This document shows, piece by piece, positions 181 to 45,061 of a stretch of 45,093 bases of DNA. Every line of letters begins with the position of its first letter. The first letter of the stretch is position 1. Source of the stretch: a virus. A program made the translations under genes and the position numbers. Location: positions 1-45,093 of the IMG/VR virus record IMGVR_UViG_3300020020_000073, one strand, 5' to 3'. A model generated the notes under the pieces. That model was not told the origin of the DNA. It saw only the letters and a program-made list of their open reading frames with translations, and ran no database searches.

Positions 181-426
181 ATGGCTATACGCAAAATTGA
201 CGAAGGACAAATTCTCATCAAATCTCCAATCACTTCCAACGGGCGCGACCTGGTAATGGGTGAGGACGGAAGGATACAATACAAAGAAACTATCGCAATG
301 GCTGCGGCTCGTGCGGGTATCGAAAGGATCAACACGAAACTGCCTTCAGCATTGAAGCATATCATTGAAGATATTAAGCCGGAAAAACCGGCCGCTGAAA
401 AACCAAAGACCGATGATAAAAAATAA
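181..426 (+). CDS. Small hypothetical protein upstream of the scaffold
   Basis: An 81-residue protein, predicted soluble, with a short hydrophilic tail rich in Lys, Pro and Asp. I do not recognise a domain. It is the first gene of the rightward head cluster and lies 98 bp before the putative scaffold gene, so a minor role in head assembly is possible. The ATG at 181 follows an AT-rich leader without a clear Shine-Dalgarno sequence, as is usual in Bacteroidota. A TATACTTTG stretch at 116-124 resembles a -7 element but has the wrong internal spacing, so no promoter is claimed. Confidence 0.6.
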   Translation: MAIRKIDEGQILIKSPITSNGRDLVMGEDGRIQYKETIAMAAARAGIERINTKLPSALKHIIEDIKPEKPAAEKPKTDDKK

Positions 427-12887: not shown

Positions 12888-13070
12888 TTAATCTATGTTT
12901 GCAATAATGTTTTTAACTGATTCGTAAGTATTCAAAACGCTGAATGCTTCGTAATCGCTCATAACAAGCATACACCTATTATCTTTCGCGGGGAAAAAGT
13001 TGAGTAGTTTTTCAACATTTACCGAGATAGGCTCGTTTTCTTTAAGTTGCAATTCGATAAAATATTTCAT
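12888..13070 (-). CDS. Small hypothetical protein
   Basis: A 60-residue acidic protein with alternating beta and helical stretches. Its ATG overlaps the stop of the XRE regulator gene upstream (ATGA). No domain is recognised; a small partner of the regulator is conceivable from the coupling. Confidence 0.55.
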   Translation of the reverse strand: MKYFIELQLKENEPISVNVEKLLNFFPAKDNRCMLVMSDYEAFSVLNTYESVKNIIANID

Positions 13071-13399: not shown

Positions 13400-13405
13400 T
13401 ACTAT

Positions 13406-13642: not shown

Positions 13643-13654
13643 TTTTTATTTAAT

Positions 13655-13804
13655 TTAATCAAGGTTTTCGTATTCAGCCTCTATTTTTAGAATTTTTATA
13701 GTTGCTTCTTTAGCATACTTTTTTTTAACCCATATCTTTATAGGCACTTTAATTTCGTTTGCTGGCTTGGGTTTTGGCCCTCTTTTTAATGGTAGCTTTT
13801 TCAT
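13655..13804 (-). CDS. Small basic protein, first gene of leftward early operon
   Basis: A 49-residue very basic protein (Lys-rich, with a VPIKIWVKKKY segment), read from ATG at 13804. It is first in the leftward operon and lies almost directly behind a perfect -7 box, so its mRNA may be close to leaderless. The start of the protein is a run of Lys and Pro. No family is recognised. Confidence 0.6.
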   Translation of the reverse strand: MKKLPLKRGPKPKPANEIKVPIKIWVKKKYAKEATIKILKIEAEYENLD

Positions 13805-19343: not shown

Positions 19344-19423
19344 CAGCATCCGACAATGCTATTTAAAACCTATTTACTGACCCTGAGAGGGCGGCTGTCG
19401 GGCCAATCTCCCAGGGTCTTTTT
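19344..19423 (+). ncRNA. Candidate ~80-nt structured RNA with terminator and kissing loops
   Basis: Between the nuclease and primase operons, a -7 box is followed by hairpin 1 (AGCAT 19345-19349 / ATGCT 19356-19360, loop CCGACA) and hairpin 2 (GACCCTG 19379-19385 / CAGGGTC 19412-19418, with inner GAG/CTC pairs) that ends in TTTTT at 19419-19423 as an intrinsic terminator. Loop 1 (CCGACA, 19350-19355) is exactly complementary to TGTCGG (19396-19401) in the apical part of hairpin 2, so the two can form a kissing complex or an alternative fold. It could be a free small RNA or a transcription attenuator for the primase operon. No known RNA family is recognised. Confidence 0.5.
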
Positions 19424-19432
19424 ATTTTGCTT

Positions 19433-19645
19433 ATGGAACAAACATTTTTTTGTACATCAGTTAAAAGAACTGTTAAGGTTAAATTTGAAGATCCGTTTAT
19501 ACTTTTTAGTTTCGTTTATCCGGAAAATGAAGATGAATTTTACGATTTTTACATTGAAGATTTGGAGCAAATTAAACCGCATTTTGTAGAGAAAACATGG
19601 GTTAATGAGGATATGGTCACGTTTATAAACGACCATGTTAAATGA
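19433..19645 (+). CDS. Small acidic protein upstream of the primase-helicase
   Basis: A 70-residue acidic protein. The ATG at 19433 was chosen over an in-frame TTG at 19427. It begins 10 bases after the terminator hairpin of the candidate RNA and its stop overlaps the primase start (ATGA), so it is the leading gene of the replication unit. No domain is recognised. Confidence 0.6.
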   Translation: MEQTFFCTSVKRTVKVKFEDPFILFSFVYPENEDEFYDFYIEDLEQIKPHFVEKTWVNEDMVTFINDHVK

Positions 19646-21876
19646 TAAAAAATGCTTACGAGGACTACAAGGCTTTAGGTTTATGTGTAATACCGATAGA
19701 ATGGGATGTTGAAAAAAAACTAGCTGTTTCTCACCGATACTGGAGCGATACAAAAGAGCTGCCGTTATTAAAAAAGCACAATGCTTTGATGATAAAAACG
19801 GATGGGGATGTCGCTGCTATAGATTTTGATCTGAAAAATACAGAGCGAAAATCTATTTTTAAAGAGTGGCAAGATATTATATTGTATAACCGTCCTGATA
19901 TTTGGGATAAAATATACATAGAGGAAACCCGTAATAAAGGTTACCATGTTTGGATAAAATATAAAAAGCTTGAAAAAAAGTTATCCCTGGCAGATAGCGA
20001 TCAGGGCAGCGAGGTTATTGCTTTGTATGCCAAAGGACCTTTGGTTTATACTTTTCCTACACCCGGGTATACTGAAATATCTGGATCAATGGCAGATATT
20101 GATTACCTAACAGATGATCAATACGAATACCTTATTAGTACCTCTCAATTATTTAATGAGTATAAACCGGATTATAACCCCGAATTAAAAGCGGTTTCTT
20201 ACCCTGCGGGTCATGAGGCAATGTTATCTCAGTTTGATAAATTATTGCCTGACGAATATTGGGAGCAAATACTTGCCGACGTCGGACTAACAAAGATTAT
20301 AAATTACCGGTACCACGCAAAAGATAAGTTTGCCGCGTTTAAACGCGCCGGATCCGATAGCTCCGCAATATCTGCAAAGGTTTATTACCACACAAAAAGG
20401 GTAATGATTTTTAGCGCATCATTGCACAAGTTTCCAAACTGGCATAATAAGCACGATTACCCAGTGTGGAGCTTACCGCCGAGCTTCGTCCTGTTTTACC
20501 ATATTAACCGGGACTGGGCCGGAACAATTGAATATATATCTTCTATTATTGAATCCGCCGGCATTGATATAAAAGCCGAATCTGAAATTACAACCGATTA
20601 CCCATTGCATGTTTTCCCTGATGAAATACGAAGATCAATTATTGAAGTATCTGAGGCGCGAAGCCTGGCACCTCAATTTGTAGCTACTGCCGGGTTATGG
20701 ACCATTAGCAGCCTTGCCGGCACAATGTTTAAATCTGAGTTTAACGGGGACGGTAAAAATATTTTATTCTGCTTAATGATTGCCCCGGTTTCAGTTGGTA
20801 AAACTCCTGCTTTTAAAGTTATGTGCGAAACGCCTTTAAAAGAAGCGCAGGAAAATATGGATGAAACGTATATTAAAAAAATAACTGAATGGCAAAAAGC
20901 GAAGGACGAGGATAGTAAAAAGTTTAAAGAAAAACGCCCCGTTCGTTATATACCTATAGCCGTTGATGGAACTACCGAGGGTTATATTGCAAAATCAATG
21001 GTGCAGCCTAACGGCATCGGGGTTTACCAGGATGAAGCCGAAACCATTTTAAATGCCGGCAGCTTTAAATCAAATAATGATGCTATCAGTTTTTTTACTC
21101 AGGCTTTCAGCGGCGGCCGTATCTCCCAAATAAGGGCAGATGATACAAAAGAGCGAGTTGTTCCAAACCTTAACCTTAACCTTTTGATGGGCACACAGCC
21201 TACCCGGGTAAAAAACATTTTTACTGAGGACCGGTTAAGCAGCGGATTTGCATCAAGGTTTTTAATGGTTTCGGCAGATTATAAAGAACTTAATATTGAA
21301 TCGGATCCATTCAGCCCGGGTAAAGAAATGTGCCAGCAATGGAAGGATATCGTAACTGAGCTTTATTACTCAGGAATGCATTTTAACGAAGCTGGCGGGC
21401 AACGTTCAATATCAATAACCGATAAGGCAAAAGAAACTTACCGGACGTATTATAAAACATTATTACAGGATGCAAACAGTCGTATAAGCTCACAGGCCGA
21501 ATCTTATATTATCGGCACCGAGGCTAAAATGAGCGCATACTTCCCGCGCCTTATTCAGATACTTGCCATAATGCACGATCCTAAAAGCCCGATAATAACT
21601 GAAGATACTGTACACCATGGATGGACACTGTATAGGTATTACGCAACGAGTACAATTAATATCATATCTAAACTTCATGGTGAAATAGAAACGGGCCTAC
21701 CTAATGACCTGGAACTATTATATCAATCTCTGCCGGATGAGTTTACCAGAAAAGAGGCAGTTGATGTTTGTGTCCGGATAAATGAAAAAGATAGGCGCTT
21801 TGATGTCGCCATGAGAAGGAAGGATTTTTCATCACTTTTTAGAAAAGAGGGGCAGGGAAAATACAGGAAGGTGTAA
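19642..21876 (+). CDS. Primase-polymerase fused to a DUF3987-type helicase
   Basis: A 744-residue replication protein. Residues ~1-190 match the bifunctional primase/polymerase (AEP) N-terminal domain, with AIDFDLKN near residue 59 giving the metal-binding Asp pair, and a later HVWIKY strand. Residues ~310-640 match DUF3987, a P-loop helicase-like family: APVSVGKTPAF near 382 as Walker A, YQDEAE near 457 as Walker B, and a LMGTQPTR sensor-like stretch. The C-terminus is basic and may bind DNA. It would prime and unwind at the phage origin. The iteron-like repeats begin at its stop codon. Confidence 0.8.
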   Translation: MIKNAYEDYKALGLCVIPIEWDVEKKLAVSHRYWSDTKELPLLKKHNALMIKTDGDVAAIDFDLKNTERKSIFKEWQDIILYNRPDIWDKIYIEETRNKGYHVWIKYKKLEKKLSLADSDQGSEVIALYAKGPLVYTFPTPGYTEISGSMADIDYLTDDQYEYLISTSQLFNEYKPDYNPELKAVSYPAGHEAMLSQFDKLLPDEYWEQILADVGLTKIINYRYHAKDKFAAFKRAGSDSSAISAKVYYHTKRVMIFSASLHKFPNWHNKHDYPVWSLPPSFVLFYHINRDWAGTIEYISSIIESAGIDIKAESEITTDYPLHVFPDEIRRSIIEVSEARSLAPQFVATAGLWTISSLAGTMFKSEFNGDGKNILFCLMIAPVSVGKTPAFKVMCETPLKEAQENMDETYIKKITEWQKAKDEDSKKFKEKRPVRYIPIAVDGTTEGYIAKSMVQPNGIGVYQDEAETILNAGSFKSNNDAISFFTQAFSGGRISQIRADDTKERVVPNLNLNLLMGTQPTRVKNIFTEDRLSSGFASRFLMVSADYKELNIESDPFSPGKEMCQQWKDIVTELYYSGMHFNEAGGQRSISITDKAKETYRTYYKTLLQDANSRISSQAESYIIGTEAKMSAYFPRLIQILAIMHDPKSPIITEDTVHHGWTLYRYYATSTINIISKLHGEIETGLPNDLELLYQSLPDEFTRKEAVDVCVRINEKDRRFDVAMRRKDFSSLFRKEGQGKYRKV

Positions 21877-23663: not shown

Positions 23664-23789
23664 ATGGAACACGTAATGGCAACAAGAGCGGGCAGGGTTA
23701 AGGTATCGGTTCACGCATCGCTATACGTTCGTGATGTTGCTGCTTGTTTCGGAGGATTCCTATTCACCCTTAACTTCTCAGCAAACTAA
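23664..23789 (+). CDS. Small hypothetical protein (41 aa)
   Basis: A 41-residue protein between terminase and a Cys-rich virion gene. Its stop TAA shares a base with the next ATG (TAATG), the coupling style of this genome, which is the main evidence for it. No domain is recognised. Confidence 0.4.
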   Translation: MEHVMATRAGRVKVSVHASLYVRDVAACFGGFLFTLNFSAN

Positions 23790-24388
23790 TGAGCTGTAAT
23801 ACCTGCTATAAAGACTGGATTTCATGCGGAGAAACCGCTATCAGCGTGTATGCAACCCTGTTACCGGAAACTAATTACACATGGATACTTACCACAGCGC
23901 AGGGCGCGAAGTACATGGGCGCGGTTACTACGGATGAAGACGGGCAGTTTATCCTGGCAGTTAGTGAACTGCCCGAGGGCCTATTAAACCCTTACGCAGG
24001 GTTGTTTACGCTCGAAGTACAGGCAGGACATTGCAACCCCGCAACGTGGAACGATTCAGCTTACTGCACACCTTACACCTGCATTGAGTTTGAAGTACGC
24101 AACGGCAACGGAGGTAAAAACATTATCGGCTGCCCATGCCTCGAAGAAGTTGAGGGCTGTTGCTACCCTACGGTGGTAGAGTTTACCGATGTGGCTACAT
24201 TGGAAATTCCTTACACCGCGCAGATGGCTTTGAAGTACGGAGAGGTTCCAACGGTGCAAACCTGGGTATACGATGAGCTTGGCCGACTGGTTTACATGGG
24301 TATTAGTGCCTCATTCGATGATGTGCCGGTAACATTAATTTCATTAGACTTCGGGGGCGTTGCTTCCGGTATTGTTGTTATAAAATAG
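23789..24388 (+). CDS. Cys-rich virion protein with C-terminal beta domain, copy 1
   Basis: A 199-residue beta-rich protein with 10 cysteines. The N-terminal part (residues ~1-110) looks like an Ig-like or beta-sandwich module. Residues ~125-199 form a second module: P-T-V-V-E-F, PYTAQ, VPTVQTWVYDELG, then LDFGGVASGIVV. This C-terminal module recurs in the proteins at 24535-24753 and 32547-33284. It resembles the HNL-type beta domains of phage tail proteins. A structural tail or adhesion role is likely. Confidence 0.6.
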   Translation: MSCNTCYKDWISCGETAISVYATLLPETNYTWILTTAQGAKYMGAVTTDEDGQFILAVSELPEGLLNPYAGLFTLEVQAGHCNPATWNDSAYCTPYTCIEFEVRNGNGGKNIIGCPCLEEVEGCCYPTVVEFTDVATLEIPYTAQMALKYGEVPTVQTWVYDELGRLVYMGISASFDDVPVTLISLDFGGVASGIVVIK

Positions 24389-32546: not shown

Positions 32547-33284
32547 ATGGCAATAACAATCATTAACCCCACAAACGCATTTATCCGCTTCAATGAATCG
32601 GAGGCTGAACCTGACTGTATATGGGGTGATATTTCTTTTTGCCTGCCGGTTTACGAGGCTTCCGATGTGGCGTTTCAATTCGTGGTGCAGGGTACCGAGG
32701 CCGAGATAGATGCCCTTTGCGATCAGCAAGCCGATGAGGTGAGCGTTGCCATTATAGCCGACTGTGACGAAGCGCCGTTGCTAACCTTCCCGCAAAAACC
32801 GGATCGCTTCCGGTTATCATTAACGCAGATGCTTTACAACTGGGAGCATGGCGTACCCAACTTTCAATCGGTTATAAGTATTGCAGAGTGTTTTCGCATA
32901 CAGGTTTCCGTTGGAGGTACTAGCTTTTGCTCAAACTGTTTTGAGCGCATAGCAGATACCTGTTATACTTCAGTAGTTGAGTACGGCAATGATGAAGATG
33001 CATTTGGGTTTAAATACTGTTATGCCGGAAACCTGGATGAAGATACAACGGTATCATGTGAGCCAACGATAGTGCAGTTTATAAACGTGCCTACATTGGC
33101 AATACCTTATACAGCGGCCTTGCAAAATGCTTACGGTTCGTTTCCAACTGTTCAGGTATGGATTTATGACGGCATGGGTCAGCTTGTAAATATGGGTATA
33201 ACGGTTGCGTTTGATAGCTATCCGCCTACGATGATAAATTTGGATTTTGGGGGGAATGCAACTGGGATAATCGTGCTGAGATAA
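32547..33284 (+). CDS. Cys-rich virion protein with C-terminal beta domain, copy 3
   Basis: A 245-residue beta-rich protein with 10 cysteines. Residues ~170-245 repeat the beta domain of the proteins at 23789 and 24535: PTIVQF, IPYTAA, FPTVQVWIYDGMG and NLDFGGNATGIIVL. Its N-terminal ~165 residues differ from copy 1, so the domain is used as a plug-in at the end of different tail proteins. A minor tail or receptor-contact role is likely. Confidence 0.6.
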   Translation: MAITIINPTNAFIRFNESEAEPDCIWGDISFCLPVYEASDVAFQFVVQGTEAEIDALCDQQADEVSVAIIADCDEAPLLTFPQKPDRFRLSLTQMLYNWEHGVPNFQSVISIAECFRIQVSVGGTSFCSNCFERIADTCYTSVVEYGNDEDAFGFKYCYAGNLDEDTTVSCEPTIVQFINVPTLAIPYTAALQNAYGSFPTVQVWIYDGMGQLVNMGITVAFDSYPPTMINLDFGGNATGIIVLR

Positions 33285-33440: not shown

Positions 33441-34607
33441 ATGTTCCTTAACCGCGTAAGATTACCACTTTATTTTTCTAAACCACAATTCCCCATAGAA
33501 AGGAGTGTGTTCAAACGCGCTGACGGCAGCCGTAAGGTACTATCAGCCGTGGTGAGCAATACATACGAGGGCAAGACCGATGATATCCCAAAGGAGTGGC
33601 ATCAGCGTCTAGCCATTGCATTAAGTCATGACGTTGTGAACATCGAATCAGACCGCCTGCTAACGGAGGTGGTAATGGAATCTGAATACGGCATAGACTG
33701 GCAGGAGTTTCTGGACTTTCCCATAGCTAAAGCGAACTTCACGGTAAATGTTACGCCGTTCAACGCATCGAACAGCAACTGCCAGACGTGCGATGAAATA
33801 ACCCAACTGGAATTGGTTGATGATACAACGGAGGATTGCTTTGAAGAAGGCACTACAAATGAATTTCCTTTCTCGGTTCTACTGAACGATTCTATCTGCT
33901 GCTATCCCTTCACGTTAGAGATAGTTAGTTTTAATACAACTTATTTCAGCGCGGTATCTATAACGGATGCTGGTATAGTAACATTTACCTTACAGGATGA
34001 AACCCCGTCAATATCGAACGTACTACTTGCCACGTACCGGGTAACATGTCCGAACGGAGCATACGATGAAGCGAATATTTACGTTTGCATTGAGGGTACT
34101 TCTACCGAGTGCGTTGCGCCGCAAAATGTAATTCTTCCGGTATTGCCTAATGGTGATAACGCTACTATTTCATGGGACGCCGTTATACCTACGCCAGCCG
34201 GTTATAATTGGGCGCTGTATGATGCCGATGATATTTACACTATCCTGCAATCAGGATCAACTACCGATACTTTTATAACCGTTACAGGACTAACCCCTGG
34301 CGAAACTTATGTATTTGCTGTTCAAACTGATTGCGGTGACGGTACCTCATCATGGTCAACGGTTGAGTTTACTATTACGGATTTACCAGAAAATTTATGC
34401 GGAAACTTCATGGTAAGTTACGACCCGACCGATAGACCTTACACCGGTTCATATACCTACATGGATTGCTCGGGCGAAATTCAAAACGGCACTTTGATTT
34501 CATTCGATGCTCAACCGGTTTGCATGCTGATCAACGAAGGAGAAACGAACCCGATATTATTTACCGCCGACCCTGGCATATCAATTTCATACATAGGACT
34601 ATGCTAA
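33441..34607 (+). CDS. Cys-rich virion protein with fibronectin type III domain
   Basis: A 388-residue protein with 13 cysteines. Residues ~228-318 form a fibronectin type III domain: NATISWDAV, then YNWALYDAD, VTGLTPGETYVFAVQTDC, and SWSTVEFTI. FN3 domains on phage virions bind surface glycans and are often on tails or capsid decorations. The first ~100 residues may anchor it to the tail. It precedes the glycosyltransferase and portal genes, overlapping the former by 7 bases (ATGCTAA). Confidence 0.7.
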   Translation: MFLNRVRLPLYFSKPQFPIERSVFKRADGSRKVLSAVVSNTYEGKTDDIPKEWHQRLAIALSHDVVNIESDRLLTEVVMESEYGIDWQEFLDFPIAKANFTVNVTPFNASNSNCQTCDEITQLELVDDTTEDCFEEGTTNEFPFSVLLNDSICCYPFTLEIVSFNTTYFSAVSITDAGIVTFTLQDETPSISNVLLATYRVTCPNGAYDEANIYVCIEGTSTECVAPQNVILPVLPNGDNATISWDAVIPTPAGYNWALYDADDIYTILQSGSTTDTFITVTGLTPGETYVFAVQTDCGDGTSSWSTVEFTITDLPENLCGNFMVSYDPTDRPYTGSYTYMDCSGEIQNGTLISFDAQPVCMLINEGETNPILFTADPGISISYIGLC

Positions 34608-35431
34608 AACAAGGGATCATATTAATTGCAACCGGACACGGCAATTACGGCAAAATGGCCTATAACTTAGCGTTGACCATTAAGAACGTTGAACCGGAAA
34701 CGCAAATAGCGGTTATCCATGACGGTTTGGATCACCTGACCGAGATACAAAAAGAGATATTTGATTTTAGGATAGAGCTGCCCGAAGGTTTCCGCCAGGG
34801 GTTCGGTGCGAAGCTGCACCTTGATCAACTTACCCCGTTTGAAAAAACTTTGTTTCTTGATGCGGATATGTTATGGCTGGGTAAAAAACCTTCCGAACTA
34901 TTTGCCGAGTTAAATGGTACGGGGTTCACTTCAATAACTGAAGGTCATAGCGAGGCCATAAATTACAAGTACTATTTTTGGGCAGACCCGCAGGAAATAA
35001 AAGACGCATACAAAGTTGATAAGGTTTGGCAGATCAGGTCCGAGGTAATGTACTTTGAAAAAGGCACAAAGGTATTTGATAAAGCCCGAAGCCTGAAGCC
35101 GGAGAAGAAACTGAAAACAATCAGGAAGTTTGGTGAGCATATACCGGACGAACTGTATTTTAATATTGCAACGGCGATTCTGGGTATTGACCCGCATCTG
35201 CCGTCATGGATGCCAGCGTATTGGGCGCGTTTACACGGTGAGGTTATGCCGCCCTTGAAGGACCTGCATCAATCGTATTATTTGCTTAGTTTTGGAAGCA
35301 ACGCAGCTTCACCTATCATGAAAAAAACTTATGATACTGTGATGACCGTTGCAACGTACAAACTAGGGTTGCCGTATCTGTTCAAATTAAAATCAAAAAA
35401 AGAATGGGCGCCAGGGCGACTAAAAATATAA
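34601..35431 (+). CDS. Glycosyltransferase (GT-A fold, GT8-like)
   Basis: A 276-residue protein starting at ATG 34601, which overlaps the end of the FN3 gene; an upstream in-frame start at 34466 would run inside that gene. The LFLDADMLWL segment carries the metal-binding D87-x-D89 of GT-A enzymes, and the N-terminus (ILIATGHGNYG) fits a nucleotide-sugar fold. It transfers a sugar from a nucleotide donor. It stands alone among rightward virion genes between the FN3 protein and the portal, so it may glycosylate a virion protein. Confidence 0.75.
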   Translation: MLKQGIILIATGHGNYGKMAYNLALTIKNVEPETQIAVIHDGLDHLTEIQKEIFDFRIELPEGFRQGFGAKLHLDQLTPFEKTLFLDADMLWLGKKPSELFAELNGTGFTSITEGHSEAINYKYYFWADPQEIKDAYKVDKVWQIRSEVMYFEKGTKVFDKARSLKPEKKLKTIRKFGEHIPDELYFNIATAILGIDPHLPSWMPAYWARLHGEVMPPLKDLHQSYYLLSFGSNAASPIMKKTYDTVMTVATYKLGLPYLFKLKSKKEWAPGRLKI

Positions 35432-35435: not shown

Positions 35436-37214
35436 ATGCCAAAACTAATATTTACACCGGCTGAACTGAAAGCATACTTCGCTGATAAGGACGAGAATAA
35501 ACCGCTGTACCATTACGCGGAAAAAAGCCGCGAACTGGAAAAGGAAATGCGGGTACACGCTGACGGTACGTTTCCGGAAAAACTTATCAACGAGCGCCGG
35601 CCGAACGAACCGGAAACGGTGCTGGAATATCGTAAAAGTATCTTCGTACCTAAGACAAAACCGTTTTTTAGTAAGATTGAATCTACCCTGCAGAAGATAC
35701 GGCGTAGCTCGGACTGGAGTATTAAATATCCTGAAGGCGCTTTTGATCGTATCGTTGAGGGCGAAAAGCTGAACGATTACACCGAAGATAATTACCCGGT
35801 GTTCAGGTCCGTAACTAACTGGGCGTTCTCTCTGCTGCTGCGGTCCTACCTGGTAGACGCGAATGCCTTGTTATTGGTGGCACCTTTGGAAATACCGGAT
35901 GAGGAAAACAAGTATGTAAAACCCGTTGTAACCATATTCAATTCCTGCGATGTTATTGACTTCGTGGAGGATGATTATGCTGTGGTGCGAAATAAGGTAG
36001 GGGCAACATACATGCAGGGAGGTAGAGAGCAGCAAGGGGAAAGCTATTACATCGTTACAACTGATTCGATTACCCGCTACGACCAGGTAAGCACTAAACG
36101 GGCGTTCGCAGTTGGTTGGTACTGGGAGCATGGACTTGACGAACTGCCCATGTTTAAACTTGGCGGTATTGTTATTGATGTTTACGGTTACAACACCTTG
36201 TACGAATCTCGTATATCCGGTATCGTTCCCGAGTTCAACGAAGCGTTACGGGAGTATAGCGATCTGCAAGCCGCTAAGGTTTTGCACTTATATCCTGAAA
36301 GGTGGGAGTACACGCAGAATGAATGTAAGGCATGTAATACAACCGGGCGCGTTATGCAAGGCACCGGTGAATCTGCTTGCCAGGTAACTTGTAACACTTG
36401 TGCGGGGCAGGGGTATATTGCCACAGGCCCATACAGTAAAATGATTATTAAGCCACCACAGGCGAATATGGGGGAGATGACAATTCCAACACCGCCCGCC
36501 GGTTTCGTTGAGAAAGATGTGGAGATTATTAAGGTGCAGGAAACTTCGATTAGTGATCATATTTACCACGGCTTATCTGCTATTAACTTTGAGTTCCTTG
36601 CTTCCTCTCCGCTCAATCAATCCGGTACTGCAAAAGAGGTAGATAAGGACGAACTAAATACAACCGTTCACGCCATTGCTGAAGACCTTGTCCGGATCAT
36701 TGATAAGACGTATTATTTCATTGCCCGTTACAGGTATTCAACCCAGTACACCGTTGAGCAGATTATTCAAATGATACCCGATATTGCAGTTCCTGAAAAG
36801 TTCGATATCCTATCAACTAAGTACTTTGATGAGCAGTTGACAAGTGCTAAGGCGAACAAGTTAAACCCGGCCATCATGAATGCTATGGAAGTGGCTTATG
36901 CTACTAAGGCGTTTAATAATGATCTGGATATTGCGGAGCATGTGCAACTTATATTGAAATTGGATCCTCTTGCCGGTATTGCTGAAGATGATAAAATGAG
37001 CAGGCTAAGTAATAAAGGCATTTTGCAAATAGATTACATAGTGAGCAGTAACATTAATAAGTTTGTAGATTTAGCAATGGAGAAAAATAAAGGCTTCGCT
37101 GAAATGGATACTACCCGGCAGCGGGATATTATTTACGCAATGGCTGCTGAACAGGAAGCTGAGGAAGTAACTAGCCTGATACCAACGGATGAAGAAGTAA
37201 TATTTGAGGAATAA
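35436..37214 (+). CDS. Portal protein, with inserted zinc finger
   Basis: A 592-residue protein in the size range of phage portals, with the layout of portals of Bacteroidota phages: N-terminal helical part, central mixed region with an FEFLASSPLNQSG loop near residue 385, and C-terminal helices with an acidic end (EEVIFEE). Residues ~297-330 carry CKACNTTG and CNTCAGQG, a DnaJ-type zinc finger inserted between the portal's two halves. It would form the dodecameric vertex for DNA passage. It sits before the minor head protein but 13 kb from terminase. Confidence 0.75.
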   Translation: MPKLIFTPAELKAYFADKDENKPLYHYAEKSRELEKEMRVHADGTFPEKLINERRPNEPETVLEYRKSIFVPKTKPFFSKIESTLQKIRRSSDWSIKYPEGAFDRIVEGEKLNDYTEDNYPVFRSVTNWAFSLLLRSYLVDANALLLVAPLEIPDEENKYVKPVVTIFNSCDVIDFVEDDYAVVRNKVGATYMQGGREQQGESYYIVTTDSITRYDQVSTKRAFAVGWYWEHGLDELPMFKLGGIVIDVYGYNTLYESRISGIVPEFNEALREYSDLQAAKVLHLYPERWEYTQNECKACNTTGRVMQGTGESACQVTCNTCAGQGYIATGPYSKMIIKPPQANMGEMTIPTPPAGFVEKDVEIIKVQETSISDHIYHGLSAINFEFLASSPLNQSGTAKEVDKDELNTTVHAIAEDLVRIIDKTYYFIARYRYSTQYTVEQIIQMIPDIAVPEKFDILSTKYFDEQLTSAKANKLNPAIMNAMEVAYATKAFNNDLDIAEHVQLILKLDPLAGIAEDDKMSRLSNKGILQIDYIVSSNINKFVDLAMEKNKGFAEMDTTRQRDIIYAMAAEQEAEEVTSLIPTDEEVIFEE

Positions 37215-37761: not shown

Positions 37762-38736
37762 ATGCCATCCCAACAAAAAATACTTAAGGAAATTAAACGC
37801 GCTCTTGCCCGGTTCGATAAGAAGATACCGGCAATGCAGAGCGAGTTATATAAGCTGATGCTGGCCGAGATTAAGCGGCTGGATACGTCAGGCGATACCG
37901 TGAAGGTTACGGTTAAAAACCTTAGCATCCTTGCCAGCATTAAGAACAAGCTAAACCGGCTTATTTTAAACCCCGAATACCGCGCAGAGGTGAAGGAATT
38001 TGCAAAGGCGTTTAACAGCGTTTACGCCTTGCAGTTCGATTACTGGAAGGAGGCCGATAAAACATTTAAGCCCCGGCCATTATTAAAAGCCGTCCGCAAC
38101 CAGGCAATAACCGATGTTGTTGGTCAGCTCACTACGCAGGGTATATCGGCTAACGTATCGGATAACCTTATACAGATACTCCGCACCAATATAACGGCAG
38201 GAGGGAGCTATAAAGACCTGGCAGAGCAGTTACGGCAGAGCTTGACCAATACACCGGAAAGTAAGGGTATTTTGGATAGGTATGTAAAGACCGTGGCAAC
38301 GGATTCGATAACGCAATTTAACCGCGCCTATACAAATATCGTTTCATCGGATCTCGGTTACGAGTGGTATTCATACGGTAATACCGAGATAGAAACATCA
38401 AGGCCGTTTTGTCAATCAATGGTTGAACGGCATAACTTTTTTCACGTTTCCCAGGTTCCAGATATGCTCAAAGGCTTATGGCTAGGTGCAAGGATGCGGT
38501 ATGACAGCAATGTAAAAGGTGAAGGAGAAAAGACCGTTGATATTTACGATAAGACCGGGCTTCCTTACGGGTTTATAGCGGGAACGAATGCAGAGAATTT
38601 CTTTGTGCGCTGTGGTGGATATCAATGTAAGCACTCATTAGACCCCGTCAATGTAAGACAAGTGCCCGCCGATCTTGTAGAAGCTGTAAAAGAAACTGCT
38701 AAATACAAAGCATGGGTTAAGGTAAATCAGAAGTAA
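37762..38736 (+). CDS. Minor head morphogenesis protein (Mu gpF-like)
   Basis: A 324-residue protein downstream of the portal. The C-terminal half has the family signature: ATDSITQFNRAYTN near residue 180, SRPFCQSMVERH near 215, and GYQCKHSLDPV near 295, the last two resembling the C-x-n-C-x-H pattern of SPP1 gp7/Mu F proteins. They join the prohead and help DNA leave the capsid. The first half is a basic coiled coil. Its last 20 bases overlap the HNH gene on the other strand. Confidence 0.75.
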   Translation: MPSQQKILKEIKRALARFDKKIPAMQSELYKLMLAEIKRLDTSGDTVKVTVKNLSILASIKNKLNRLILNPEYRAEVKEFAKAFNSVYALQFDYWKEADKTFKPRPLLKAVRNQAITDVVGQLTTQGISANVSDNLIQILRTNITAGGSYKDLAEQLRQSLTNTPESKGILDRYVKTVATDSITQFNRAYTNIVSSDLGYEWYSYGNTEIETSRPFCQSMVERHNFFHVSQVPDMLKGLWLGARMRYDSNVKGEGEKTVDIYDKTGLPYGFIAGTNAENFFVRCGGYQCKHSLDPVNVRQVPADLVEAVKETAKYKAWVKVNQK

Positions 38737-39277
38737 TATGCTGCCATGCTTTGCCGTTTAAAATATCTCCAAATTGCCTACGGGAAATATTAAATCGTTT
38801 GCATTCCCGCGTTTGATTTACGGCACTATTTCGCATTGAATATATTTCTACCACTTGCTCATTTGTTAGTTTGCTTTGCCCATGTATTTCACCAACGGCG
38901 TTGCATAATCCGGTTTTCCTTGCATGGGCGCAATTTTCACGGTAAGAAATATATTCTAAATTTGTATAGTGGTTATTTAATTTATTGCCGTCCTTGTGAT
39001 TCCATGCCATCCAATCATCACTTTTTACCATTTCGCAAAAGTGTTCACCAACTAATTGATGCATACGGCATACTCTTTTATATGTTACATTTCGCATTGT
39101 AACTGAAGTGTAACCCATAGTATCTTTGCCGCCGGCAACTAAATAAAAGCTATTACCCCTGATAGAAATTAATCTACCGTGATCGCTAATTAAAAACCTC
39201 CCCCTAAAATTGTTTACTGGTAAAAACCTTTCTGAATTAAAGGCAATAGCTTGGATAAAACTTTGTAGATTTGCCAT
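38717..39277 (-). CDS. HNH homing endonuclease
   Basis: A 186-residue protein with a NUMOD4-like N-terminus (residues ~28-60), an HNH core (MHQLVGEHF ... WNHKDGNKLNNHYTNLEY, residues ~72-110) and a C-terminal DNA-binding part (GEIHGQSKLTNEQVVEIY, a NUMOD/AP2-like helix). Such freestanding endonucleases nick DNA in related phages lacking the gene and copy themselves in. It sits between the minor head gene, with which it overlaps by 20 bases at the 3' ends, and the terminator of the tRNA operon. Confidence 0.85.
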   Translation of the reverse strand: MANLQSFIQAIAFNSERFLPVNNFRGRFLISDHGRLISIRGNSFYLVAGGKDTMGYTSVTMRNVTYKRVCRMHQLVGEHFCEMVKSDDWMAWNHKDGNKLNNHYTNLEYISYRENCAHARKTGLCNAVGEIHGQSKLTNEQVVEIYSMRNSAVNQTRECKRFNISRRQFGDILNGKAWQHITSDLP

Positions 39278-39308: not shown

Positions 39309-39341
39309 AAAAAACCCCGCAGATTAAACGTTTGCGGGGTT
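39309..39341 (-). terminator. Strong leftward terminator after the tRNA
   Basis: AACCCCGCA (39313-39321) pairs perfectly with TGCGGGGTT (39333-39341); on the minus strand six T (complement of 39309-39314) partly overlap the stem base. It ends the long leftward operon of glycosyltransferases and the tRNA, 9 bases after the tRNA. Confidence 0.9.
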
Positions 39342-39350
39342 CCTTTTTAG

Positions 39351-39425
39351 AGGGCAATACAGGATTCAAACCTGTGGTTGTTCGGCTTTGCAGGCCGCTG
39401 CATTGGATCACTCTGCCAATTGCCC
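39351..39425 (-). tRNA. tRNA-Cys (GCA)
   Basis: On the minus strand a full cloverleaf of 75 nt is seen without encoded CCA. Acceptor GGGCAAT pairs with ATTGCCC; discriminator is T (U73, the main Cys identity base). The anticodon arm CGGC / GCCG holds the loop CTGCAAA, anticodon GCA. The T arm ACAGG / CCTGT holds loop TTTGAAT. The D arm has three pairs (GCA/TGC) and a GTGATCC loop. The usual G19-C56 tertiary pair is replaced by A19-U56. The 27-43 pair is a G-A mismatch. It lies at the end of the leftward operon, just before a strong terminator. Cys is abundant in this phage's virion proteins. Confidence 0.88.
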
Positions 39426-39517
39426 GTTTAAAAATCCCCATTATTTTACATCATCCGTTTTTAGGACGTCCAAAAATACCCGTTAGGATACCCGATGTAT
39501 ATTCCAGGGGATTGTAT

Positions 39518-39745
39518 TTATATCAGCACCTTCTTACTCAACTTAAAACTGTACGTCCTGCCGGATGCGTCCGAGGTGCAGTAGGCGTACTTGCCCTGTA
39601 CGGTATTGATTTCATACCACGGACCGCGCGGGTTAATCTTAAACTTTTGTTCATCCTTTAATTGCCGAAGTGTAGTTAGTGTCATATGATTGTTGATTTT
39701 AATTTCGTCAGTTGATCGGTACAGAGGTGATACATCATAGCTCAT
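39518..39745 (-). CDS. Small hypothetical protein (75 aa)
   Basis: A 75-residue basic protein read from the ATG at 39745, which overlaps the stop of the upstream 34-aa gene (ATGA). A longer in-frame start at 39853 was rejected because it would overlap that gene and part of the one before. A stretch near residue 21 (MTLTTLRQLKDEQKF) could be a shorter conserved start. The ending (GRTYSFKLSKK) is basic. No function is recognised. It is the last protein gene before the tRNA. Confidence 0.6.
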   Translation of the reverse strand: MSYDVSPLYRSTDEIKINNHMTLTTLRQLKDEQKFKINPRGPWYEINTVQGKYAYCTSDASGRTYSFKLSKKVLI

Positions 39746-39846
39746 AATTGTATAATTATTGTGATGATAAAACAGATTATAAATATAGCTACACCTGCCA
39801 TAGACGAAGCTAGTTTTTTCTCGTGGGCGGTAAGTGGGTGGCTCAT
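39742..39846 (-). CDS. Tiny membrane protein (34 aa)
   Basis: A 34-residue protein with one membrane span (~15-33, Ile-rich) after a short polar N-terminus. Both ends overlap neighbouring genes by ATGA, which supports it as real. It may anchor the glycan machinery or a neighbour to the membrane. Confidence 0.55.
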   Translation of the reverse strand: MSHPLTAHEKKLASSMAGVAIFIICFIITIIIQL

Positions 39847-40112
39847 AAATCAAACCTCCCTTTAACTGGAATGATTTTAGTTGGGTCCGTTAATATGATA
39901 GCAGGATCAACATTATTACTCCATGAATGCACCTGCAAAGTAAAGTCCGGCGGCGGTTCTGGCATATCCCATTGCAAGCCATCCCACAAAGCAAAACCCC
40001 AATCGTAAGTATTGCCACCTTCAGCATCGGTTATCTGGAATAATACGTACTTCATCCCCTGGTTTTTTTCGCTGGGGTTAGTGCGGTAAAATAGTAGTTC
40101 AACTTTTTTCAT
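39843..40112 (-). CDS. Small hypothetical protein (89 aa)
   Basis: An 89-residue beta-rich protein with several Trp and Pro, coupled by ATGA to both neighbours. No domain is recognised. Belongs to the leftward operon behind the methyltransferases. Confidence 0.6.
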   Translation of the reverse strand: MKKVELLFYRTNPSEKNQGMKYVLFQITDAEGGNTYDWGFALWDGLQWDMPEPPPDFTLQVHSWSNNVDPAIILTDPTKIIPVKGRFDL

Positions 40113-40249
40113 ACTCTTATTGGTTTTTTAAGTGCCATTTCATAGGCTTTATCGAATCCGTATTTTTTAATCATGTACTTACTCGGGGCTTTAAAAAAGT
40201 ATATAGCCTTAATGTTCCCCATTTCTGCACTGCATTTAGGAAGTTTCAT
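40109..40249 (-). CDS. Small basic protein (46 aa)
   Basis: A 46-residue protein, basic with a short hydrophobic middle, read from ATG at 40249 to TGA at 40111-40109. ATGA overlaps on both sides place it firmly in the operon. No family is recognised. Confidence 0.6.
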   Translation of the reverse strand: MKLPKCSAEMGNIKAIYFFKAPSKYMIKKYGFDKAYEMALKKPIRV

Positions 40250-40857
40250 ATACAGTAAATTAAATTTTCGCCGTTCTTATGTAATAACCTATACCCCTGC
40301 GGCACAACAATAGCATCGTACAAATGTTTATCCTTGCCGTTATACTCCACGCAAAGCAGTGAGCAGCCGAGGGCGCGAAGGTCCATTTGTGGAAGTACGG
40401 ATAATTCCGCACCTTCAATATCCATCGAAATAAAATCGAATGTTTTATGCCTGGTTAAGCCGAGCAAGGTATTAAAATTAACCGAAGGCACTTCTACTTC
40501 GGTAAACGTTTCTTTTTTCCAGCGGCTTTTTTCCTCTGCGATTACCGAGCTTAATAATGACACGTCGCCTTTACCTAAATGCTCACCGGATTCGTGCAGG
40601 ATTATAGTGCCGTTGCTAGTCCATACTGCAGCGTGTATAAAATCAAGCGTTTGATTGTCCGCGTAATTCTGCAACATCTTCCGGTATGCCTTAGGCGATG
40701 CCTCACACAAGCAGCCTTGCCAGCCATCTAACGCCAATGCATAAGTGTTGGATAGTGTTACCCCGTCATTACTTCCCATGTCCAGGAACGTGCCACGGAA
40801 TGATCTTCCAAAGTATCTGTAAATTACTTGCTGTTCGTCGTTTTGACTATGTATCAT
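40246..40857 (-). CDS. FkbM-family methyltransferase
   Basis: A 203-residue protein starting at ATG 40857, which overlaps the upstream stop by ATGA; a longer in-frame start at 40923 would overlap that gene. FLDMGSNDGVTLSNTYAL near residue 24 is the SAM-binding motif of the FkbM family (PF05050), followed by GWQGCLCEA and the FDFISMDIEGAELSVL block near 150. FkbM enzymes O-methylate sugars in polysaccharides and natural products. Between glycosyltransferase genes it probably methylates the sugar chain, perhaps to cap it. Confidence 0.82.
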   Translation of the reverse strand: MIHSQNDEQQVIYRYFGRSFRGTFLDMGSNDGVTLSNTYALALDGWQGCLCEASPKAYRKMLQNYADNQTLDFIHAAVWTSNGTIILHESGEHLGKGDVSLLSSVIAEEKSRWKKETFTEVEVPSVNFNTLLGLTRHKTFDFISMDIEGAELSVLPQMDLRALGCSLLCVEYNGKDKHLYDAIVVPQGYRLLHKNGENLIYCI

Positions 40858-41477
40858 ATCTTTCTTAAATGAATTATTAAATCCCTGTGTTCTGGTATCA
40901 TGTTGCTGTTTACAATTTCCCATCCTTCACCAACGATAAAACCTAGCGTTCTTTCATCCTGGCAGAAATGCCCGAATGGTAAAAGCTCACCTAAGTTATA
41001 ATCTTTATCAACCTGTTTTTTACTATGCTCCCAATTAGCCAACATGAAAAGAAAATCGCCGCCGGTTTTTAATGCAGCCTGAACAGCGATTAAGTATTCC
41101 CGTAATGCATCATTTGAAAGGTGGCAAAAACAGTTGTAAGAAAACGCGAAATCGAAACGATTATTAGCAAGGTTAGGGCTGTAGCATTTATCAGGCAGTT
41201 CGATGTAGCTAAACTTGTAATGGCTATACTTCGCAAACTTATCAGGCATTTGTATAACATCTATTGCCGTGGTATGCGCAAACCTCGGTACCATCTTTTC
41301 GGTAAACACTCCGCCGCCTGAACCGACCTCTAAAGCGGTCTTGCTGATGGCAAAGAACGGAACTAAACATCGTTGTACAACTGCATCGAAACCTACGCCG
41401 TAACTGAACTGCTCGTAATAGCCATCGGGTCCCCACGAACGTTGAAAAAACTCTTTGTCAAAATCAAATGTCTCCAT
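40854..41477 (-). CDS. SAM-dependent methyltransferase (class I)
   Basis: A 207-residue protein with ALEVGSGGGVFTEKM (~48-62) as motif I, AIDVIQ near 72 as motif II, a FDFAFSYNCFCHL block near 108 and a LKTGGDFLFML strand near 136. It overlaps its neighbours on both sides (14 bases upstream, ATGA downstream). Its substrate is probably a sugar or lipid-linked glycan made by the adjacent glycosyltransferases. Confidence 0.78.
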   Translation of the reverse strand: METFDFDKEFFQRSWGPDGYYEQFSYGVGFDAVVQRCLVPFFAISKTALEVGSGGGVFTEKMVPRFAHTTAIDVIQMPDKFAKYSHYKFSYIELPDKCYSPNLANNRFDFAFSYNCFCHLSNDALREYLIAVQAALKTGGDFLFMLANWEHSKKQVDKDYNLGELLPFGHFCQDERTLGFIVGEGWEIVNSNMIPEHRDLIIHLRKI

Positions 41478-42753
41478 ATATCAATTTATAATTTTTACCA
41501 TATTCAAATGGTTCCTTTGCGTGTACCGAACTTACTATTTCACCATAAGGTAGCAATTTTATTTTATGCTTCCATAGGATAACGCTTATAACGGCCTGAT
41601 CGTGCCGGTGTGCTACAAAACCCGTCCTTCTACTTCCGCCATCCTCAAAACTACCGTTCATTGAGTGCGCGCATATTTCCTCAAATACCTCACATGCTTT
41701 ATCCTTTGTGAAATCAAAACCTAAAGCACCTCCCCACGTTTGCGGGATCATCTTTATTTCAGCATCGCCGACGTTTAAATTAGCTGCAGCCTTATCTGAA
41801 ATATATTTCCATAACGGATGCCCGAGGTTATCGAATACAATTACGCCGGATTCGTTAAACAGGTTCGCGAATGAAGGACCGTCTGCTAACCGTATTGAGC
41901 TATCCAGCCAGTACACTTGTTTGTAACCGTCCTCCCTTGCTTTGCGAATTAAGTCGTATTTGAACTTGTAAGGTATTACACTATTAGGAGTGCAGTATTC
42001 AGGATAAGACTTATACAGCCTTGTATCCCATATCCATTCTTTTGCAATGGACCTTTCTAAGTTTTCAGATTTATCAACATAGTTTTCCCGGCCATTAACG
42101 GCTAAAGAAATTAATACTTTTGTTTGCGCTTCATGTGTTGCAGTATCGCCCCTTACTATCCTATCTGCCTCACTTCCTGCTTCGCTGTGGTTATATTGGG
42201 TTAGTATCATATCCGTATGGGCTTCGGTTTTTAGGTAAGGTAATACACGCTCCATCCAGGTCCAGTCCTCGTTATGATTAAGGGCAATAAACGGGATGCC
42301 TACAACTAGCTTACGCAGCACCGGGCACACATGCCAGGGAGTTCTTTTAATAACATTGTTCGGGTTCACTTCCTCATTCACATCATGGGCAAGGCTCATA
42401 TTTATAAGGCTCCAGTAATAATCATTTTTTACCAGGCACCGGAAGGTTACAATATCATTCCCCTCGCTGCACATTCTTACAAGCTGCTCAATATAATTTG
42501 GCGTAGGTTTATCATCATCATCTAAAAAGCAAACGTACTCCCCCGATGCCCGTTTCAGTAATGCGTTGCGTTTTTCGCCAATGGATAAACCGCCTTCAGT
42601 GAATCTTTTACTGTCATCGATTACAAGTTCAACGCTTCCCAAAGAAGGATGAACGGTTTGCAGGGCGAGTATCTGCCTGTATAACTCATTGGTTAATGAG
42701 ATTAGTTTGTCCCGGCGATCTGGGATTGAGGGGATCATTATACTCAGGATCAT
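41464..42753 (-). CDS. Two-domain glycosyltransferase (GT2 plus second GT-like domain)
   Basis: A 429-residue protein. Residues ~1-220 are a GT2 domain: LSIMIPSIPDR, KRNALLKRASGEYVCFLDDDD with D78-D81 as metal-binding motif, and a NHNEDWTWM block near 160 with the likely catalytic acid. Residues ~235-429 look like a second glycosyltransferase-like domain with VYWLDSSIRL (DxS) near 282. Two-domain enzymes of this kind add two sugars in a row. It is the largest gene of the leftward operon and overlaps both neighbours. Confidence 0.75.
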   Translation of the reverse strand: MILSIMIPSIPDRRDKLISLTNELYRQILALQTVHPSLGSVELVIDDSKRFTEGGLSIGEKRNALLKRASGEYVCFLDDDDKPTPNYIEQLVRMCSEGNDIVTFRCLVKNDYYWSLINMSLAHDVNEEVNPNNVIKRTPWHVCPVLRKLVVGIPFIALNHNEDWTWMERVLPYLKTEAHTDMILTQYNHSEAGSEADRIVRGDTATHEAQTKVLISLAVNGRENYVDKSENLERSIAKEWIWDTRLYKSYPEYCTPNSVIPYKFKYDLIRKAREDGYKQVYWLDSSIRLADGPSFANLFNESGVIVFDNLGHPLWKYISDKAAANLNVGDAEIKMIPQTWGGALGFDFTKDKACEVFEEICAHSMNGSFEDGGSRRTGFVAHRHDQAVISVILWKHKIKLLPYGEIVSSVHAKEPFEYGKNYKLIYGDI

Positions 42754-43307
42754 TTATACTCTTTATTATGGGTGGAAAATCTGTAATGATACATTGGTTT
42801 CTCAATGGTGTATTCAGTTTTTAGGTAAGGTTTCAGCCTATCCGAATACGCCTTATCCTCCGCGTTGCTTATATCAGGGAAACCCGCTTGCAAAGCCAGT
42901 TCACGCTTAACGGCTGTGATGTGGTTAGTGGTGCGAAGGTAAACGCCGTTACGGGTAACGTTTGGGTTATCCTTAGATAGATACCAGTTGATGCGGTTCT
43001 TGCCGTTGGTGGTTATCCATCCATTGATAGCAAAGCAATCCGCATCTGATTCGGCAGCTTTTAAAAGCTCTTCAATGTAGTAAGGTTCTATCCAGTCATC
43101 ATCATCTATGAAGATAATGTACTTGCCGGTAGCAGCATGAAGTAGCTTGTTACGTTTGTATCCGGTGGTATGTTGTTTATTGTCGCCGAATACTAATATC
43201 TGCACCTTTGGGTTGCCGTTAGATTGACTAATTAACTCGTCATAAAGAACACTAAAAACCTTCTCCCTGCTATCAATAGTGCATATCAATACAGACAATA
43301 ATATCAT
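42750..43307 (-). CDS. Family 2 glycosyltransferase
   Basis: A 185-residue single-domain GT2: LLSVLICTIDSR at the start, YKRNKLLHAATGKYIIFIDDDDW at ~50-72 with D68-D71, and an EDKAYSDRLKPYL block near 149 with the catalytic Glu/Asp. Its ending strongly resembles the ending of the first domain of the next gene (LPYLKTE), so the two are probably related by duplication. Coupled by ATGA to both neighbours. Confidence 0.8.
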   Translation of the reverse strand: MILLSVLICTIDSREKVFSVLYDELISQSNGNPKVQILVFGDNKQHTTGYKRNKLLHAATGKYIIFIDDDDWIEPYYIEELLKAAESDADCFAINGWITTNGKNRINWYLSKDNPNVTRNGVYLRTTNHITAVKRELALQAGFPDISNAEDKAYSDRLKPYLKTEYTIEKPMYHYRFSTHNKEYK

Positions 43308-43960
43308 ATCCCAAAATTTATAGATTTCCTTCTTTCAAACGTTGCTTTATCCTCCATGTGAAACGACTCCGTATGTTTCAGCAGGGCGTCCGGTGTACCA
43401 TGCCCCCATGCCGGGTGCAGGTGGTTAAACAACCTAGTTTTTTTATAAACGTACCGGCCGCGTAACTTCGCTACGGCTTGCTGCTCGTTATCACAAAATA
43501 GAGATTTATATTCAGGATTGTAAATATATCCATCCCGGTCAAAGTACGTGCGCCCCATGATAGCCATTGTTATCAATGCAGGGCCCGCTGCCTGGTCAGG
43601 GAAGTGCATTAAACAATCGAGGCCGTGCAACTGGAACGCGTTAACGATAATAGAATCGAAACCGGGTGCAATAAACTGCATATCATCGGACATGTTGATG
43701 AGGATATCCCATGAATCGTAGAAAACAAGGTCCCTGTTTATTGCGTCTACCTTCGATAATGATGTACCATACAATAAATCCACATTCCTATAAGTATTGA
43801 TATTATCCCTTACTTCCGGGTTCATCATTGACTTGTCATCTATATCCGCGGTAATAGCTATCTGGTAATTATCATGGGTAGATAATTGTTGGATGTTGTC
43901 GAGGGCTGCAAACAACTTGCTAGGCCGAGAACGAGTAGGAAATTTATATAAAATTCTCAT
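43304..43960 (-). CDS. Glycosyltransferase (GT2-like)
   Basis: A 218-residue protein with KFPTRSRPSKLF at the start and INMSDDMQF (~88-96), in which D92-D93 would bind the metal and nucleotide sugar. A HLHPAWGHG block near 183 may be in the acceptor site. It lies 8 bp behind the upstream transferase. Such SDD-motif enzymes are known from phage and capsule loci. Confidence 0.7.
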   Translation of the reverse strand: MRILYKFPTRSRPSKLFAALDNIQQLSTHDNYQIAITADIDDKSMMNPEVRDNINTYRNVDLLYGTSLSKVDAINRDLVFYDSWDILINMSDDMQFIAPGFDSIIVNAFQLHGLDCLMHFPDQAAGPALITMAIMGRTYFDRDGYIYNPEYKSLFCDNEQQAVAKLRGRYVYKKTRLFNHLHPAWGHGTPDALLKHTESFHMEDKATFERRKSINFGI

Positions 43961-43968
43961 AATTAGTT

Positions 43969-44622
43969 TTAATTTACATGCCTCCCGTTATCCCCGATAT
44001 GCCTTATATACGGATCAACTAAAATTGCCGCCTTATACCCCAGCCTGTTATACAACTGCGAAATAGCTGCCTCCGCCTTCCACGGCCGGTGCCGTTCAAA
44101 GGTGGTATGCCTTCCGTATGAGCCAATGGCTTTATAATCTGCTAACCTCTTCAACGAAGGGCTAAACTGAAACCCTGCCCACATACCCGGCGCACTCTTA
44201 AGTATGCCGTAATCATCGCCCCATGTTATCGGGTGAGAAACCAAGTCGCTGCGATCACGAAGCCATACATGCGCAACGCGGGGCAATGCTTCCATAATAG
44301 CCATTGATGCCTCGATAAAACCGGGGCGGATGAATAACCAGTCATCCTCTTGCATGAAGGCATACGGCGTTGTACAGGCTTGAAACAACGTATCCAGCGC
44401 AACTATCTGCCCGGTACGTTCCTTTGGTTCTATCCAGCGAATAAACGGGTATTTTATTTTCAGCCGGTCGTTAATGCCCTCAATGCCGCTATCCTCGTAA
44501 ACTATGAAATCATGCAGGGGGTAAGTATTCATCTTAATAAATGAATCTATTGTGCGTTCCAGTAAGTCCTGACGCCCGCATGAGGTAAGCAGGGCGGTTA
44601 CTTCGGGTGGGTTAGAGGTCAA
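43969..44622 (-). CDS. Family 2 glycosyltransferase
   Basis: A 217-residue protein starting with TTG at 44622 inside the stop codon of the upstream gene (TTGA). VTALLTSCGRQDLLERTIDSF is the N-terminal GT2 block (given in part) and FMQEDDWLF carries E92-D93-D94. DPYIRHIGDNGRH at the end may bind the diphosphate. It is the first glycosyltransferase in the operon as transcribed. Confidence 0.78.
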   Translation of the reverse strand: MTSNPPEVTALLTSCGRQDLLERTIDSFIKMNTYPLHDFIVYEDSGIEGINDRLKIKYPFIRWIEPKERTGQIVALDTLFQACTTPYAFMQEDDWLFIRPGFIEASMAIMEALPRVAHVWLRDRSDLVSHPITWGDDYGILKSAPGMWAGFQFSPSLKRLADYKAIGSYGRHTTFERHRPWKAEAAISQLYNRLGYKAAILVDPYIRHIGDNGRHVN

Positions 44623-44891
44623 AATTTAGTCTCTTTAGTTTCGTTTAACTGTTTTATTAAAGCGTCTGCTAAGTCCACAGACCACGCAACAATATTTTTA
44701 TAATCTATCATGCCGTGTCCGATAGCATCTACAGACCCGGCTAAATAACCTTGCATTGCTTTAGCTGCAAAATACTCCCTTTTAGATAGTCCATATGAAT
44801 TACGATGAACTATTACAGGCATATCTAAAAAGTCTTTACCGCCTTCTGTAAATTCTTTTTCACTTGGGAATGCTGGTTCGTTTCCGTGCAT
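44619..44891 (-). CDS. Small AMQG-type phage protein, copy 2
   Basis: A 90-residue protein with GLSKREYFAAKAMQG (~43-57) and an ADALIKQLN helix near the end, the same layout as the 70-residue protein at 14315-14527. It has an extra ~40-residue N-terminus. It sits second in the leftward operon, before the first glycosyltransferase. Its function is unknown. Confidence 0.65.
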   Translation of the reverse strand: MHGNEPAFPSEKEFTEGGKDFLDMPVIVHRNSYGLSKREYFAAKAMQGYLAGSVDAIGHGMIDYKNIVAWSVDLADALIKQLNETKETKF

Positions 44892-44893
44892 AA

Positions 44894-45061
44894 CTATTTA
44901 TTTACAGGTTTACAATCGCGTATATTTTTACTATCAACATACTCAGTTAATATTTTTTTAATAAGCCAATGAAGGCTACGATCAATATTTACCGCTTCGC
45001 ATTGCAAAGGAGTTTTTAAATCGCCTAATCTTATTGGGAATGGTTTGTTATCTGTAAGCAT
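44894..45061 (-). CDS. Small protein (55 aa), first gene of the leftward glycan operon
   Basis: Read from ATG at 45061 to TAG at 44896-44894, two bases before the next gene. It is a mixed alpha/beta, slightly basic protein with two Cys. The first 95 bases of the window repeat its 5' part. It lies 5 bases behind a perfect -7 box, so its mRNA may start almost at the ATG. No family is recognised. Confidence 0.6.
   Translation of the reverse strand: MLTDNKPFPIRLGDLKTPLQCEAVNIDRSLHWLIKKILTEYVDSKNIRDCKPVNK

Follow-up and report, generated by a model that had tools for sequence, protein, structure and literature searches.

A glycan gene cassette at a swappable site between particle-building genes of an uncultured, probably Bacteroidota-infecting phage

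According to one article (PMC12363180, citing Freeman 2023), capsid and tail-tube proteins of the phages Che8, Corndog and Myrna are glycosylated. Gene sets similar to the one described here are already known in other phages. The present analysis concerns the IMG/VR virus record IMGVR_UViG_3300020020_000073 (45,093 nt, analysed over its whole length and referred to below as the window), in which a leftward unit at 45061–39309 encodes glycosyltransferases, methyltransferases and a tRNA-Cys. The virion glycosylation reports that were found concern actinobacteriophages; the lineage of the window is uncultured and probably infects Bacteroidota. Judged from the gene order of its relatives, the unit is a glycan cassette at a fixed, swappable site between particle-building genes, and it seems somewhat probable that it serves to glycosylate virion proteins. 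Neither this swap site nor the constant transferase gene located next to the portal gene was found described in the literature.

The record has 127 identical nt at its two ends, and because of this direct terminal repeat it is taken as a closed, complete genome of ~44,966 bp. With the circle closed, the start of the first gene of the unit (gene a) falls within the repeat, and the next gene upstream, 85 bp away across the junction, is a divergent small late gene (181..426, plus strand). This gene, recognised by conserved order, is the right edge of the variable site, whereas the left edge is a head-morphogenesis gene (37762..38736, plus strand), assigned by synteny and because its homolog in genome G014 matches the PHROG head morphogenesis group. 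The gene order, which is fixed in the lineage, is a 30217-type gene, a 33441-type gene, the core transferase, the portal, the head-morphogenesis gene, the gap, gene 181, a scaffold-like gene and a capsid-position gene. Among the 17 genomes with both edges visible (the window included), the gap ranges from 20 bp to 7.6 kb. Glycan genes, in differing sets, are present in nine of them (gaps of 1.6–7.6 kb) and were not recognised in the other eight, where the gap measures 20–38 bp (L199, L200, L202) or 0.3–1.2 kb (L198, L201, L204, L207, L208). Most of these loci were recovered with the core transferase as query, so that its presence there is a matter of selection; most relatives are fragments, and some loci are near-copies (L199, L200 and L204, with L202 having the gap layout of L200).

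The genes of the unit are called a to k, starting from 45061, and the two halves of gene f are called f-N and f-C. Cassette genes of the relatives were named from Pfam-annotated representatives, and three main types were distinguished. Type I (L182 and G002, as well as G005 as far as covered) consists of j, GT7, a methyltransferase or unknown gene, Methyltransf_24 and c. Type II consists of GT7, GT47, FkbM, Methyltransf_24, GT11 and GT2 (G003, L192, L194 and L215, and, as far as covered, L186, L187, L191 and L196), and type III (G004) of d, e, f-N, f-C, GDP-mannose dehydratase, an FdtA-like cupin and h; the gap of G014 holds a methyltransferase and a GT25 gene. The cassette of the window looks chimeric, with type I outside (c at the promoter end; j and the tRNA-Cys at the opposite end, an arrangement shared with G001/G005) and type III inside (d-e-f-h), plus g. 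In the portal tree, the window groups with L181, L182 and L183 (100/100), and the type I genome G002 (L193) pairs with the type III genome G004 (L195) (100/99). The simplest account would be that the inner genes were replaced in the window and the whole set in G004. Within the G004 cassette, L088:12419-13679 encodes a GDP-mannose 4,6-dehydratase and an FdtA-like cupin, so that some members of the lineage themselves encode part of the pathway to their donors; together, this dehydratase and the GT11 gene of type II hint at GDP-deoxysugar donors in the lineage.

A putative HNH/NUMOD4 homing-type endonuclease gene (38717..39277, minus strand; Pfam HNH_3 and NUMOD4, both below cut-off) is also located within the window's hotspot. 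Genes for HNH/NUMOD endonucleases occur in the same gap at L192:18948-19706, L194:16445-17035 and 19409-19996, L204:13499-14011 and L191:16615-17304, and in L204 the homing-type endonuclease stands alone in an otherwise empty hotspot. That such enzymes drive the exchange of cassettes is only a suggestion.

The unit accounts for ~12.8% of the genome (~14.6% counting the transferase gene 34601–35431). A preliminary description made from the sequence alone had proposed packed leftward genes from 45061 to 39518 with a terminal tRNA-Cys and terminator, and both features were borne out. Eleven ORFs with open frames at these positions follow one another at distances of 2, −4, 8, −4, −4, −14, ~−4, −4, −4 and −11 nt (gene a to k, in order), the value for g/h assuming that the FkbM gene starts at an internal ATG at 40857 (with the longest frame, which opens at 40923, the value is −70). 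The tRNA-Cys (gca; 39350..39425, minus strand), found by ARAGORN and Rfam (55 bits), is located 92 nt beyond gene k and is followed by an intrinsic terminator hairpin (39313..39341, minus strand) with a 12-pair stem, a loop of 5 and a minus-strand T run.

Five transferase domains had been proposed for the unit, four of which (c, d, e and f-N) are supported by profile matches, while the fifth, f-C, is inferred only. Gene c (43969..44622, minus strand, as are all genes of the unit; 217 aa) encodes a GT2-type glycosyltransferase (Pfam PF00535, 27.5 bits; cut-off, 23.3) with homologs at 46–57% identity, and is common to the type I cassettes of L182, G005 and G002. Gene d (43304..43960, 218 aa) is recognised by a PHROG profile only (PHROG 14945 glycosyltransferase; E-value, 4e-11) and has at least 80 relatives in viral contigs, whereas gene e (42750..43307, 185 aa) is a GT2 glycosyltransferase by both Pfam (44.8 bits) and PHROG (14775; 1e-35). 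The product of gene f (41464..42753, 429 aa) combines a GT2 domain (residues 1–~208; PF00535, 36.4 bits, above the curated cut-off) with an unclassified, likely transferase domain (~209–429). The latter has no match in any profile library scanned, although it contains conserved W-D-[SACT] and HR-D motifs; the WLDSS motif found in it departs from the canonical DxD. In the predicted model of gene f, the N-half is confident and the C-half partly so, and the Foldseek matches of the whole model to GT2 proteins may be due to the N-half alone. The halves are separate genes, beside relatives of d, e and h, in G004, L129, L132-L135 and L104, and in L142 and L157 a d-like domain is fused to an f-N-like domain; these fusions suggest that the proteins work together. 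A single-sequence scan of IMG/VR with gene f yielded no relative, the relatives of its halves being reached only through G004 and d. Among solved structures, sequence searches gave no convincing match to c, d, f-C or h.

The two proposed methyltransferases were confirmed by Pfam: gene g (40854..41477, 207 aa) encodes a class I S-adenosylmethionine (SAM) methyltransferase (Methyltransf_23/11/25), and gene h (40246..40857, 203 aa from the internal ATG) an FkbM methyltransferase (PF05050; 1.3e-14, 55.2 bits against a curated cut-off of 22.7; 40% identity to the G004 homolog). Also in agreement with the preliminary description, no nucleotide-sugar synthesis genes were found among the scanned window proteins, a set without some small ORFs, so that the donors would come from elsewhere. 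No membrane segments were predicted in genes a–k by a hydropathy scan, the maximum (19-residue) being 1.48 compared with 1.8–2.1 in membrane proteins of the window.

The rightward transferase at 34601 had been counted together with the unit. It is a real transferase gene, of GT8/glycogenin fold, but a conserved late gene outside the cassette, because relatives that have no cassette also carry it at the same position, between a tail-type gene and the portal. The gene (34601..35431, plus strand) encodes 276 aa, and the model built from a 24-sequence alignment, in which a DAD (DxD) motif is invariant, has a mean pLDDT of 93. Its best Foldseek matches are to glycogenin (E-value, 2e-10) and other GT8 structures. 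At the level of sequence, neither this protein nor its L082 homolog has a Pfam match, the PDB profile match to glycogenin is marginal (0.04), and a search of 50,697 phage records gave no convincing relative.

In the phage records, e and f-N are closest to transferases from phages of Mycobacterium and Gordonia. Gene e matches the N-half of Che8 gp108 (32% identity, 5e-27), f-N matches gp108 as well (4e-22), and both are also homologous to LittleE gp15 and Forza gp93; in LittleE, a related cassette is located between capsid and head-tail connector genes. In contigs of unrelated phages (L132, L135, L104 and L100), d/e-type cassettes are found just upstream of the terminase genes, and at L133:7340-11819 and L135:228-5920 the set d-h-fN-e-fC, likewise upstream of the terminase, is extended by GT4-like, GT7-like and MptE-like (PF01973) genes. 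The fixed site in the virion gene module, the constant portal-side gene of GT8 fold, the homology to actinobacteriophage genes and the lack of membrane enzymes together favour the virion among the three targets that had been envisaged (virion proteins, host surface polysaccharide and modified DNA), and it is on balance probable, though by no means assured, that the unit is an exchangeable virion-glycosylation cassette. The glycogenin-like fold class includes protein-glycosylating enzymes, and the core transferase would attach the first sugar to a virion protein, with a host nucleotide sugar as donor. The products of c, d, e and f would lengthen the glycan with further host nucleotide sugars and the class I and FkbM enzymes would methylate it, giving a phage-specific sugar surface that would be altered when cassettes are exchanged; the tRNA-Cys may be a passenger, released by cleavage at the 3' end of the unit's transcript.

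Several observations weigh against virion glycosylation. Che8 gp110, named essential for capsid glycosylation (cf. Corndog gp38), has only chance-level matches in the window. In the window itself and in most relatives, cassette and late genes are on opposite strands, so that co-expression of the cassette with virion genes cannot be taken for granted; the core transferase is retained where the cassette is lacking, and thus core and cassette need not act together, and in G014 a cassette is present although no core transferase was found. C-terminal tails of the capsid protein were considered as acceptor sites and rejected, as they do not differ between cassette-bearing and cassette-free genomes.

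The same enzymes might instead act on the host surface, altering a unit of the capsule or O-antigen while it is still in the cytoplasm, by added sugars and methyl capping, so that the receptor is changed and other phages are excluded or less progeny is lost to debris. This, the main rival reading, is doubtful, though not far-fetched. Host polysaccharide loci often encode enzymes of the GT2, GT11, GT25 and FkbM families, soluble transferases can work on cytoplasmic lipid-linked precursors, and the variation of the cassette between close relatives is what would be expected if it followed the host surface type. However, the unit is devoid of a flippase, polymerase or membrane transferase, unlike gtrABC seroconversion systems, and no integrase was recognised in the window, hence no sign of lysogeny, where seroconversion mostly pays; moreover, the unit lies within the virion module and has homologs in phages reported to glycosylate their own virions. 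The location also speaks against glycosylation of a host protein, such as a pilus, an S-layer-like protein or an adhesin of the gliding machinery, by which use of the receptor would be blocked. Phage-encoded pilin glycosylation has precedent and the transferases are soluble and of protein type, but no evidence points specifically to a host target, and a blocking tag would hardly call for as many as five transferase domains and two methyltransferases, which makes this explanation improbable.

Least credible of all is decoration of modified phage DNA against restriction. Phage transferases of such a kind exist, and a DNA methyltransferase-like protein is encoded at 16496–17890, yet no hydroxymethylase, TET/JBP-type enzyme or known base-glucosyltransferase was seen among the scanned window proteins, and relatives exist without the cassette. 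If virion proteins are indeed the target, a more specific version, which can be put forward only tentatively, is a two-part glycan-coat system in which a constant glycogenin-like enzyme, encoded beside the portal and acting as primer on a virion protein, is combined with an exchangeable cassette that decides the glycan, recombination being possibly helped by homing endonucleases. Otherwise similar phages would then differ in surface glycan type. Virion glycosylation in this lineage would point to glycan coats as a variable trait of environmental phages, with a bearing on adsorption, stability and recognition.

The host is likely a member of Bacteroidota. Bacterial genomes yielded a single close match, a 27.5-kb contig of a metagenome-assembled genome (MAG) named Taibaiella (Chitinophagaceae); this contig has the same layout with a type II cassette and may come from a phage and have been binned with the MAG. 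Among isolates, Polaribacter phages have the nearest portal (30% identity over 108 residues), and the regions upstream of the window genes are A-rich and mostly without a Shine–Dalgarno sequence. No Bacteroidota-type promoter (TTTG-N17-22-TAnnTTTG) was present upstream of gene a, and sigma-70-type sites were no commoner than in shuffled DNA.

A tRNA-Cys with the same anticodon is found at the same site in G001/G005 (L082:1827-1898; L091:2751-2822), so that three genomes, the window included, have this site in common despite their diverged sequences. In G001/G005, its first base coincides with the final base of the stop codon that ends the gene j homolog, and this overlap indirectly supports the view that the tRNA-Cys belongs to the leftward unit. 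Cysteine demand was rejected as the reason for its presence (Cys codons, 1.83% in virion genes versus 1.85% in replication and other genes). Gene j itself (39843..40112, 89 aa, unknown function) is conserved in type I cassettes, in which it is the final protein-coding gene, and its homologs adjoin the head-morphogenesis gene in L182, G001, G005 and G002. The other small genes of the unit are a (44894..45061, 55 aa) and k (39518..39853, 111 aa), which have no relative in the loci compared, b (44619..44891, 90 aa; phrog_2201 of unknown function, 2e-13) and i (40109..40249, 46 aa), which overlaps each neighbour by 4 nt; a, i and k are ORFs of unknown function.

Elsewhere in the window, the portal protein is encoded at 35436..37214 (plus strand; PHROG 7376), and the scaffold-like (525-1415) and capsid-position (1451-2554) genes, both on the plus strand, are assigned by position and synteny only; neither had a match in family searches. 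In Polaribacter phage P12002L, whose portal is the nearest among isolates, nothing homologous is present at the capsid position. The late proteins encoded at 23789–24388 and 32547–33284 have related C-terminal ~75 residues and match the same relatives, which suggests a module shared by two virion proteins. The gene at 8229–9050, which adjoins tail fibre and beta-helix genes, weakly matches reprolysin-type metallopeptidases, and a leftward set of small genes (10775–13804) includes one for a Cro/C1-type HTH protein (13067–13399). No DNA-level relatives of the window were found among phage records.

Compared with known systems, the core transferase shares fold and DxD motif with the GT8 family (glycogenin, Skp1 galactosyltransferase), although identity is ~15%, the TM-score is 0.55–0.6, and the window offers no glycogen context. 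T4-type DNA glucosyltransferases likewise use a host-supplied UDP-sugar, as inferred for the window, but belong to other enzyme families, and hydroxymethyl-base synthesis genes are missing from the scanned window proteins. Phage-encoded sugar transfer is also common to gtrABC seroconversion, from which the unit differs in having no flippase (GtrA) or membrane transferases and in lying outside any lysogeny module. Che8 gp108–gp110 resemble the unit in that transferases are clustered and the GT2 domain of gp108 is homologous to e and f-N, its second half being methyltransferase-like as judged by eye. However, the Che8 genes are located at the right end of the genome rather than between head genes, homologs of gp109 and gp110 are lacking in the window, which further differs by its larger number of transferases, its FkbM enzyme and its GT8-fold core gene. 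LittleE gp15–gp21 include an e homolog (36% identity) in a cassette between the major capsid and head-tail connector genes, but this cassette is on the late-gene strand, and its other members (a kinase and other transferases) are unrelated to those of the window. The contigs L132-L135, L129 and L104 share five domains (d, h, f-N, e and f-C) with the window and have them adjacent to one another, upstream of the terminase, although they belong to another phage lineage, follow the order d-h-fN-e-fC and encode f-N and f-C as separate genes.

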